DNA of 57,486 bases, taken from positions 1 through 57,486 of the forward strand of contig JAADFL010000085.1 of assembly GCA_013152945.1 (NCBI GenBank), written 5' to 3'. Below, piece by piece: positions 43,474 through 57,486 of this stretch; positions within the stretch are counted from its first letter, which is position 1; every line of letters begins with the position of its first letter. The DNA is from Deltaproteobacteria bacterium (GTDB lineage Bacteria; Myxococcota_A; JAADFL01). Made by a program: the position numbers and the translations under genes. The notes below the pieces were generated by a model. That model did not search any database and had not been told where the DNA came from. It saw only the letters and a program-made list of their open reading frames with translations.

Positions 43474-43488
43474 GCCAAAATGTCGGCC
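43474..43488. repeat. left 15-bp direct repeat (target-site-duplication-like)
   Basis: GCCAAAATGTCGGCC, identical to 44047-44061 in the same orientation; the element lies exactly between the two copies. Confidence 0.85.
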
Positions 43489-43577
43489 TGTCGAAGCCGA
43501 GTCAATATGTCAGTAAAGTGCCGAGTGAAAATGTCGTTGGGGTAATGGTTTATGCCACATACCTTTGGGCGGTGTCA

Positions 43578-43617
43578 GGCCCTCCCCACCCGAGTCAGGC
43601 CCTCCCCACCCAGGTTG
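43578..43617. repeat. C-rich 20-mer repeat (two copies)
   Basis: Two units beginning GGCCCTCCCCACCC, the second identical to the 20-mer at 24418-24437. They lie inside the 558-bp element. Confidence 0.8.
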
Positions 43618-43665
43618 ATTTTCAAGGCATGAAAAAAAGCAAAACGATTTGTTTTTTTATATCCT

Positions 43666-43732
43666 GGACCAGGCCGGCTTTCCACCGCCCTCACCCCCTT
43701 TTGTCCCCCTCTCCCGCAGAGCGGGCGAGGGG
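43666..43732. repeat. 67-bp dispersed repeat with REP-like hairpin (copy 2)
   Basis: Identical to 24610-24676 and followed by the same GATCGTTTGGTACCA stretch. The hairpin arms CCCCCTCTCCCGC and GCGGGCGAGGGGG pair with one mismatch. Confidence 0.88.
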
Positions 43733-44046
43733 GATCGTTTGGTACCAATAATTGGGGCGTTGCCCCAGGCTATTTTATTTCGCCCCTTTGGGGCTTTTTG
43801 GGGAATTGGTTTTATTTGATTTAATTGGAAATGATTCAATCGGGGAAAATGTCCCTATGATGCGGGATGTATGGCCGGATGCTTCGAATGTCCGGCACCA
43901 ATTAAGCCCTGAAGGGGCGTAATATGTCAGACAGGGGCAACGCCCCTGGAATTGTTGCGAACAGCCTGAATCCATATGGGACGAATCTTCTTCCTACTGA
44001 CATATTCATTCGGCATTACTACTGACATTTTAATTCGGCTACCACA

Positions 44047-44061
44047 GCCAAAATGTCGGCC
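44047..44061. repeat. right 15-bp direct repeat (target-site-duplication-like)
   Basis: Second copy of GCCAAAATGTCGGCC, directly adjoining the right inverted repeat of the element. Confidence 0.85.
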
Positions 44062-44091
44062 TTGACATGTTTCGGTTCCATTTGCTAGCGT
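44062..44091 (+). promoter_or_regulatory. candidate promoter for the outer-membrane-like protein
   Basis: TTGACA (44062-44067), 18-bp spacer, TAGCGT (44086-44091). The -35 begins right after the direct repeat. The leader contains GGCGCAT/ATGCGCC (44117-44132), an operator- or hairpin-like inverted repeat. Confidence 0.35.
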
Positions 44092-44145: not shown

Positions 44146-45213
44146 ATGAGGAGTACTGTGGCGCTTGTCGCAGCGGCTGTTTTTGTGACGTGGGCAGGAT
44201 CTGCGGCGGCCATGTCCCATGACATCGACTTGTCGCACATGGTCCTGGACAAAGACGGCAAACCGTGGGACGGGGTTAACCCGTACGGCACGCTTTTCAA
44301 GGATAGTAACCAGCTTCATCCGATAGCCAACCAGGACTTCTTTAAAAAGCTGTCGAGTGAACTCGGTCTGGCCATAGCGCCCGCTTTCCTGGCCCCGGCA
44401 AAGACACTGGGCCACCTTGGGTTCGATATCGGCGTGGAATTCTCGGTCTCGGACATTCACGAGTCAGAGGACTATTGGAACGGACCATGCGGAGGCACAA
44501 GTGTTTCCACCTGTAAGACGAGCAGCTTTATCGAGGACGACAAGACCCCGCGAACAGTTCTGTCTTCAGGCAGGGTGCACATTCGAAAGGGGCTTCCGTT
44601 CTCTTTCGAGCTTGGGGGAACCGCTACATATCTTTTTTATACTGAAATGGCGGCATTGGGCATGGAACTTAAGTGGGCCGTAAACGAGGGCTTCTACTAT
44701 ATCCCGGATTTTTCGGTCAGGGGTTCGGTCACCAGGCTGTTCGGCAGCAAGGACCTGGACCTGACAATGGGCGGATTCGATATTACCATCAGCAAGACAT
44801 TCGGCGTTGGCGGCACGGTGCAACTGTCGCCGTACGGCGGGTACAATTTCTTGTACATGCGTGCTGCAAGCTATGTGCTGGATGCGACCCCCAAGGTCTC
44901 GGCAGGAACAGTGAAACTGACCAATGATGAGATGCCCCCGGGATATACCGGCTCCCTTACTGATTGGCAGAATGGATTCGACAATTTAACACAGCAGGAA
45001 CGGGACAATTATCAAAAAGATCTGCAGAGCGCGGAACGCAAGATGTATTTTTCATTCAATGCCGAGGGTATGATTACCCATCGTGAATTTGTTGGTTTCA
45101 TGTTCAAGACAAATATCCTGACATTGGCTGCGGAAGCAGTATTTGCCGAGTTGCCGTCGGCAGGCATAGGTTTTATTTGGCAGGTCAACACGAAGATTGG
45201 GCTGGATTTTTAG
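44146..45213 (+). CDS. outer-membrane-barrel-like secreted protein
   Basis: A 355-residue exported protein. ATG 44146 follows GGAGGT, and a signal peptide (STVALVAAAVFVTWAGSAAA) is cleaved near residue 22. The mature part alternates polar and hydrophobic residues in strand-like runs (LGFDIGVEFSVSDI, SFELGGTATYLFY, PDFSVRGSVTRLFG, GTVQLSPYGGYNFLYMRA) and ends with GIGFIWQVNTKIGLDF, a C-terminal Phe as in outer-membrane barrels. A small Cys pair lies in an early loop (GPCGGTSVSTCK). It may be a barrel of ~10-12 strands. No family was recognised. It is monocistronic and converges on the repeat-protein gene. Confidence 0.78.
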   Translation: MRSTVALVAAAVFVTWAGSAAAMSHDIDLSHMVLDKDGKPWDGVNPYGTLFKDSNQLHPIANQDFFKKLSSELGLAIAPAFLAPAKTLGHLGFDIGVEFSVSDIHESEDYWNGPCGGTSVSTCKTSSFIEDDKTPRTVLSSGRVHIRKGLPFSFELGGTATYLFYTEMAALGMELKWAVNEGFYYIPDFSVRGSVTRLFGSKDLDLTMGGFDITISKTFGVGGTVQLSPYGGYNFLYMRAASYVLDATPKVSAGTVKLTNDEMPPGYTGSLTDWQNGFDNLTQQERDNYQKDLQSAERKMYFSFNAEGMITHREFVGFMFKTNILTLAAEAVFAELPSAGIGFIWQVNTKIGLDF

Positions 45214-56862: not shown

Positions 56863-57318
56863 CTAATTTTCCTTGAGTACATGGTCATCGTACTCGACCT
56901 CGAAACGAAGCTTATGTTTGGCCTCTTCCTGTGCCAAGGCTAGAAAAGTGCTTTGTAGATCCGGGTCATCAACCTGTTCGGACAGGTCCATGTACAGCCT
57001 GAAAGCCTTTTTCTCTTTTTTCATGGCCAAAATCAATGCATCCTGGTAGCTCATATCCGGCGTGGGGGATTCTTCGACCAGATAATCTCCAATCTTGAGA
57101 TCCTGTATCTTCTTTTCCGCGGGAAATAGCTTCTTTCCTTCCTTGATACCCTCGAGCTTGGCTTTGTGTCCTTTCTCCTCGGCAGCAAAGTTTTGGAAAA
57201 TCTTTTTCATCCACTCCTGGTCCACCTTGCCTGCCAAGTCAGAGTAGAAATCGACTGCTTCCTGCTCGCGCTCAATTGCAAAATTCAAAACCTCGTCAAC
57301 AGATCCGAAATTACTCAT
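56863..57318 (-). CDS. ferritin-like diiron protein (rubrerythrin-type helical domain)
   Basis: A 151-residue four-helix protein starting at ATG 57318 after AAGGAGG. Iron-ligand motifs are visible in all four helices: AIEREQEAVDFY, AAEEKGHKAKLE, AMKKEKKAFRLY and AQEEAKHKLRFE, that is paired E...ExxH as in the rubrerythrin group. The C-terminal rubredoxin domain of true rubrerythrin is missing. Such proteins reduce peroxide or store iron in anaerobes. This fits the oxygen-sensitive ferredoxin oxidoreductase in the window; that link is inference. Confidence 0.9.
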   Translation of the reverse strand: MSNFGSVDEVLNFAIEREQEAVDFYSDLAGKVDQEWMKKIFQNFAAEEKGHKAKLEGIKEGKKLFPAEKKIQDLKIGDYLVEESPTPDMSYQDALILAMKKEKKAFRLYMDLSEQVDDPDLQSTFLALAQEEAKHKLRFEVEYDDHVLKEN

Positions 57319-57395
57319 ATTGCATCCTCCTTGCCAAAAATGACTTTCTCTGAGTATCAATGCGCTGGTTAATAGTCAAGAATAAGGTATCAGGA

Positions 57396-57486
57396 TGTGG
57401 TAGCCGAATTAAAATGTCAGTAGGAAGGGGATTCGTCCCATACGGATTCAGGCTGTTCGCAACAATTCCAGGGGCGTTGCCCCTGT
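57396..57486. mobile_element. second copy of the repeat element, entering from the right edge
   Basis: Starting at TGTGGTAGCCGA, this is the reverse complement of the right part of the 558-bp element (43931-44046). It matches with a few substitutions but has one terminal subrepeat instead of two. It continues beyond the window. Confidence 0.75.

Follow-up and report, generated by a model that had tools for sequence, protein, structure and literature searches.

The element at positions 43489..44046 of the window, by which we mean the whole 57,486-nucleotide stretch of DNA analysed, is very probably a MITE that is mobilised in trans by a DDE transposase of the IS1202 family (ISNCY_2; long-duplication group) and that inserts immediately upstream of predicted sigma-70 promoters. 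It is short and multicopy, has inverted ends and target duplications and lacks a transposase, and so has the features that define a MITE. Both the MITE and its full-length relatives are found at predicted sigma-70 promoters, in an orientation that is fixed within each subfamily.

Structure of the element

The element (+ strand, left end to right end) spans 558 bp, starts with TGT and ends with ACA. It is directly abutted on both sides by GCCAAAATGTCGGCC, the left-end (43474..43488, +) and right-end (44047..44061, +) copies of the target-site duplication, which are identical. A preliminary description had reported a 558-bp transposase-free element with a perfect 15-bp flanking repeat; these coordinates and the identity of the repeats were confirmed, and inspection of the open reading frames inside the 558 bp found none of transposase length. 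The inverted ends with two subrepeats each, also reported there, are present in imperfect form, the outer 26 bp of the two ends matching at 21 positions. The left end (43489..43535, +) contains two GCCGARTNAAWATGTC subrepeats on the plus strand (43496-43511 and 43520-43535) and the right end (43999..44046, −) two on the minus strand (43999-44014 and 44024-44039), with a spacing of 24–25 bp at each end; all four are probable transposase-binding sites. Allowing up to one mismatch, the window holds five subrepeat sites, against 0 expected from shuffles. The fifth, at 57403, is part of a second copy of the element (57396..57486, −), a right end cut by the end of the contig.

The interior contains two GTCAGGCCCTCCCCACCC units (43574..43611, +) and an inverted pair (43739..43961, +) with arms at 43739-43796 and 43904-43961, which forms a single long stem on folding (z −5.8). 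A match to the Rfam family Acido-Lenti-1 (RF01687) lies in one of these arms (43751..43795, +). Further Acido-Lenti-1 matches lie inside other copies in the genome (L003, L006, L010, L013, L017 and L023), several of which outscore the copy in the window; part of this RNA family may represent a hairpin carried by a transposon.

Copies in the same genome

BLAST of the element against its source genome, a check proposed in the preliminary description, gave 94 matching stretches, and at least 70 copies are present. The subrepeat pattern occurs at 133 sites in the genome, compared with 2 for a reversed control pattern, and the repeats are therefore far beyond chance. Collection of the ends with their flanks gave at least 71 right and 22 left ends once four poor matches had been removed. 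As contigs often break inside copies, ends were paired through their flanks: 14 of the 22 left ends share a flanking duplication with a right end, against 0 for shuffled flanks. The duplications are 15 bp long in six pairs and 16 bp in eight; 11 are exact, two have one mismatch and one has two. Other copies are flanked by their own, unrelated 15–16 bp sequences rather than by GCCAAAATGTCGGCC, and two copies with both ends (L044 and L071) lack a matching duplication. The paired flanks show copy-by-copy insertion with target duplication. The preliminary description had named flanks that never duplicate as evidence against its reading, which is the reverse of what these pairs reveal. Its interpretation of the direct repeat as a target-site duplication is borne out by the 14 pairs, but the length that it considered unusual is normal for the IS1202 long-duplication group.

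Around 20 right-end-only copies end abruptly at AATCAACCTGGGTGGGGAGGGCC, with a variable count of GGTGGGGAGGGCC units, and continue into unique DNA without a duplication (for example L003, L019, L027, L041, L076, L082, L091, L097, L098, L103 and L107); the GTCAGGCCCTCCCCACCC units at 43574-43611 of the window lie near this stopping point. Around 12 further copies retain only 22–57 bp of the right end. Our guess is that the excess of right ends (71 vs 22) arises from deletions that spare the end beside a needed promoter.

The target resembles a sigma-70 promoter

Going outward on the right-end side, TTGACA or a close variant comes directly after the duplication, and a TATAAT-like hexamer lies about 17 bp past it. 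All promoters at element edges discussed here were predicted from sequence. In 14 of 14 pairs the −35 hexamer begins exactly at the duplication edge, with TTG as its first three bases every time. Across the 71 right-end flanks, a −35-like hexamer was found at offset 15, 16 or 17, taking the best of these three, in 24, 39 and 8 flanks respectively; with any offset from 10 to 23 allowed, it still lay at 15–17 in 67 of 71. The six positions of TTGACA are conserved at 96, 93, 96, 77, 76 and 55% in these flanks, with C favoured directly before the TTG (54%). A TATAAT-like hexamer, defined as at least four of six positions matching at a spacing of 16–18, accompanies 63% of targets compared with 11% of 528 control TTGACN sites elsewhere in the fetched DNA, coding DNA included (p = 8e-16); the spacing between −35 and −10 is 17 in 31 of 45. 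Targets whose −35 is not TTGAC also have a TATAAT-like hexamer in 63% of cases (p = 1e-9). Together, these two controls indicate that the whole promoter matters, not TTGAC alone. In 43 of 69 cases a ribosome-binding site and gene start were found 45–200 bp farther out, compared with 14% of random positions (p = 4e-20), and no promoter motif was found in the left flanks of the own-genome copies. The MITE copies sit, on these predictions, just upstream of gene promoters in one fixed orientation.

For the copy in the window, the predicted −35 box TTGACA starts at the duplication edge (44062..44067, +) and is followed, at a spacing of 18, by a weak predicted −10 box, TAGCGT (44086..44091, +). The gene 3′ of this promoter (44146..45213, +) encodes a 355-aa product with an apparent signal peptide, judged by eye, and no Pfam match. 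The second copy has a predicted promoter 16 bp from its right end (57351..57379, −), consisting of TTGACT (57374-57379), a spacing of 17 and TACTCA (57351-57356); the gene 3′ of it (56863..57360, −) has an ATG after a ribosome-binding site at 57318.

The same arrangement is seen in relatives of the element (described below). For 14 relatives with duplications of 15–17 bp, a simple promoter score read exactly at the duplication edge, taking the better of the two sides, averaged 8.93, compared with a mean of 4.57 (sd 0.37) at offsets more than two bases away; one base off the edge, the score drops from 8.9 to about 5.1–5.6. Eight of the 14 (L242, L243, L244, L247, L248, L250, L254 and L258) came from a search that postdated the rule. 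Examples at the duplication edge are L218 (AAGTCAATGATGGAAC, then TTGACA-17-TAGATT), L229 (GTAGGCGCTCCCGAAA, then TTGACT-17-TAGAAT) and L243 (GCCGTCGCCTTCGAC, then TTGACA); in L254, TTGACC lies two bases off the edge. A −10 is kept even in relatives whose −35 is poor (TAGACA or GCGACA, for example).

These features suggest a pathway in which the subrepeats bind the transposase and the transposase, most likely, docks on promoter-bound RNA polymerase holoenzyme, possibly aided by reading of the TTG. One strand would be joined at the upstream edge of the −35 hexamer and the other 15–17 bp further upstream, and gap repair would then duplicate about −36 to −52, leaving the whole promoter intact beside the element. 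The duplicated segment would be the region upstream of the −35, and the promoter would retain its own upstream sequence. The outcome would be a safe landing place, with no gene broken and the promoter core kept. Docking on polymerase is favoured because targets with poor −35 boxes still have good −10 boxes, and because the dif-targeting cousins within the IS1202 family have been proposed to dock on XerC (PMC10132070).

The main rival to docking is direct recognition of the −35 DNA (TTGAC) by the transposase, with no part for polymerase, insertions elsewhere having been lost by selection; we consider this somewhat unlikely. The base preferences fit it, with TTG at 93–96%, the A and C that follow at 77 and 76% and the preceding C at 54%, and the relatives encode no extra target-choice protein. 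TTG at 93–96% also looks more conserved than in promoters generally, which favours some direct reading of DNA. What direct reading would not predict is the −10 at the right spacing in 63% of targets but only 11% of control TTGACN sites, its equal frequency where the −35 is not TTGAC, or its retention in relatives with TAGACA or GCGACA. Part of the first difference could reflect survivorship in intergenic DNA, as the control sites include coding DNA. Random intergenic insertion, with selection retaining only copies that leave promoters intact, is very improbable: the elements are indeed intergenic and the adjoining promoters intact, but the −35 coincides with the duplication edge in every one of the 14 pairs and lies at offsets of 15–17 elsewhere, and the relatives behave alike at base resolution (8.9 falling to about 5.1–5.6 one base away). 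Selection cannot produce spacing of this kind.

Autonomous relatives and the transposase family

When 84,980 genomes were scanned for pairs of adjacent subrepeats, the same ends turned up in other bacteria; in 36 genomes of the same phylum the subrepeat pattern found no relatives. Two contigs carry complete elements with these ends and a transposase (L136 and L134), of the kind that the preliminary description had proposed to look for. L136 (6513-7860) is 1348 bp long, with a single open reading frame of 400 aa and an exact 15-bp duplication, TTTTTTAAAAAATGG. L134 (49-1504) encodes a 426-aa protein, 61% identical to that of L136, and has no matching duplication. Both transposases match the NCBIfam model transpos_ISNCY_2 (NF033594; E 1e-122), well above its cut-off. 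Residues D170, D230, E280 and Q287 are invariant in an alignment of 16 relatives, and D, D, E with Q at E+7 is the mark of the IS1202 family (PMC10132070). The predicted transposase structure (pLDDT 81) is closest to the IstA and TnsB strand-transfer complexes.

The element itself is best classed as a passenger of this family, judging from its ends, its duplication length and the transposases of its relatives. At 558 bp it differs from autonomous IS1202 members, which carry their own transposase of 394–507 aa in 1.3–1.75 kb, and where members of the ISAjo2 group have a dif-like site 3–5 bp from one end it has a predicted promoter at 15–16 bp. Its own genome contains a transposase relic of 63 residues (C73:9868-10056), 70% identical to L136 and retaining SPQAKGRVERLWGTIQ. 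No intact IS1202-family transposase was seen in that genome, so that mobilisation in trans is here an inference, and the copies may no longer be mobile, or their partner may be unassembled. A search for rve domains found only an IS3-like pair, on contig C82. The element had no match in plasmid DNA; tblastn of plasmids with three promoter-type transposases gave nothing at strict limits, and with L156 as query one partial match. Viral contigs yielded one distant relative (L204), and none for the L218 query.

The preliminary description had inferred a MITE-like passenger of an IS481, IS21 or related transposase. The first part holds, given the copies, the paired duplications and the same-end relatives; IS21 or IS481 in the strict sense is a highly unlikely mobiliser. 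The IS1202-family transposases are distant relatives of both, and IS21-type ends also have spaced subrepeats and TGT termini. Against this, the transposases of the same-end relatives are of the ISNCY_2 type, far above that model's cut-off; they score 106.6 and 88 bits with the IS481 model NF033577 (cut-off 224) and also fall under the cut-offs of the IS21 models, and exact duplications of 15–17 bp suit the IS1202 long-duplication group. No IS21 or IS481 element with these ends was found in the element's own or related genomes. The single istB locus of the genome was considered as a source of an IS21 mobiliser and rejected; its ends are different (TGTAAATGGCAACCGAAAAATGACCC). The suggestion that another copy's end served as the insertion site, with the direct repeat as a leftover of that end, draws on the presence of AAAATGTC in the repeat and is extremely improbable. 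The duplications of thirteen other copies are equally long but unrelated in sequence, the feature common to them being the predicted promoter beyond, which the preliminary description does not mention, and the flanks outside the direct repeat contain no further end sequence.

Comparison with known systems

Published IS1202-family duplications fall into groups of 3–5 bp or 16–28 bp, the longer group comprising ISTde1, ISCARN53/62/63 and IS1202; in that survey the 5-bp group was located at dif sites and no target was found for the longer duplications (PMC10132070). With the long group, the element and its relatives have in common TGT...ACA ends of about 23–27 bp (criterion 22–29 bp) with an extra inner site per end, and the relatives also have long duplications and a single DDE transposase with Q at E+7. 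The differences are that the copy in the window has no transposase, that its 15-bp duplication is one base under the published range and that the target here is a predicted sigma-70 promoter, ISTde1 being compared by its published description. The 15-bp duplications extend the lower bound of the group by one base.

With Tn7 and its TnsB, the relatives share a TnsB-like DDE fold (predicted here), TGT/ACA ends and a fixed orientation at a chosen site (PMC10132070); unlike Tn7 they have one protein only, without TnsA, TnsC or TnsD, and differ in target and duplication length. Bacterial MITEs such as Correia and MITEAba12 are likewise short, intergenic and non-autonomous, but have been described with outward promoters or an AT-rich preference, whereas the present element appears to land at a fixed distance from existing promoters (PMC10969869, PMC6382973).

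The reading of the target as a promoter class recalls transposition in eukaryotes. The yeast retrotransposons Ty1 and Ty3 insert upstream of Pol III genes. What marks a harmless place to insert is, in both cases, the region of transcription initiation; Ty1 and Ty3 are eukaryotic retrotransposons and the present system a bacterial DDE element at predicted sigma-70 promoters, for which contact with polymerase is inferred. We give about even chances to the broader proposition that the long-duplication IS1202 branch is widespread and uses sigma-70 RNA polymerase on promoters as its landing platform, which would make it the bacterial equivalent of yeast retrotransposons that track Pol III.

We found no report of promoter targeting by the IS1202 family in the open-access literature; a subscription paper could exist. 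As far as the open-access literature goes, the putative promoter target class of this MITE, itself assigned to the IS1202 family, has not been described before. The predictions give a promoter target at base resolution for most of the long-duplication group, in several unrelated bacteria. If confirmed, this would make available a transposase able to integrate upstream of promoters while leaving genes unbroken. The insertions would also serve as a natural record of which promoters uncultured bacteria use, and in sister groups of transposases a switch of target could be followed alongside a switch of duplication length and defined protein insertions.

Target groups among the relatives

Further autonomous relatives were obtained from searches of three groups of 377–396 genomes; most genomes examined are metagenome assemblies. 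Five relatives with 5-bp duplications (L205, L207, L251, L256 and L261) adjoin dif-like sites, as published. This dif-hunting group, exemplified by ISAjo2 and ISAba71, has in common with the promoter-types the transposase family, a fixed orientation and a position one duplication length from a host-protein-bound site, and differs in having a 5-bp duplication and a XerC/XerD site in place of 15–17 bp and a promoter (PMC10132070). Seven gammaproteobacterial relatives with duplications of 16–17 bp (L208-L214) were located neither at promoters (z 0.4) nor at dif-like sites. These lie on plasmids of Vibrio, Shewanella and Pseudoalteromonas and have exact or near-exact duplications, and L212 and L213 have a common target, CTAG|CTCAGACTTGATCTRACAGTTACCC. 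Their position away from promoters and this common target make a third kind of target likely for the group. Three edge or damaged relatives (L220, L252 and L257) gave a weak promoter result or none that could be read, and the ends of several others (L245, L246, L255 and L260) could not be placed.

In the transposase tree the dif-types form one clade (100/100, together with unclassified rows), as does the gammaproteobacterial group (100/100); the promoter-types are not one clade and fill the remainder. In the alignment, an additional stretch, about DGCVTQGSIVDNKLL, follows the beta-barrel in dif-type transposases and is absent from the promoter-types, in which the loop separating the second D from TQFG is longer. 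The stretch and the loop are candidate target-choice elements. The promoter-facing end is the left one in the LacPavin genome (L131 and L136) and the right one in the element's own genome (G000) and a Myxococcales genome (G378), and the ends are clearly homologous despite this reversal.

In L221, the target promoter and its downstream leader lie on both sides of the transposase gene (1331-1500 and 2740-2960), and the 5′ end of the element is missing. The layout looks as if a rearrangement had given the transposase the promoter of its target.
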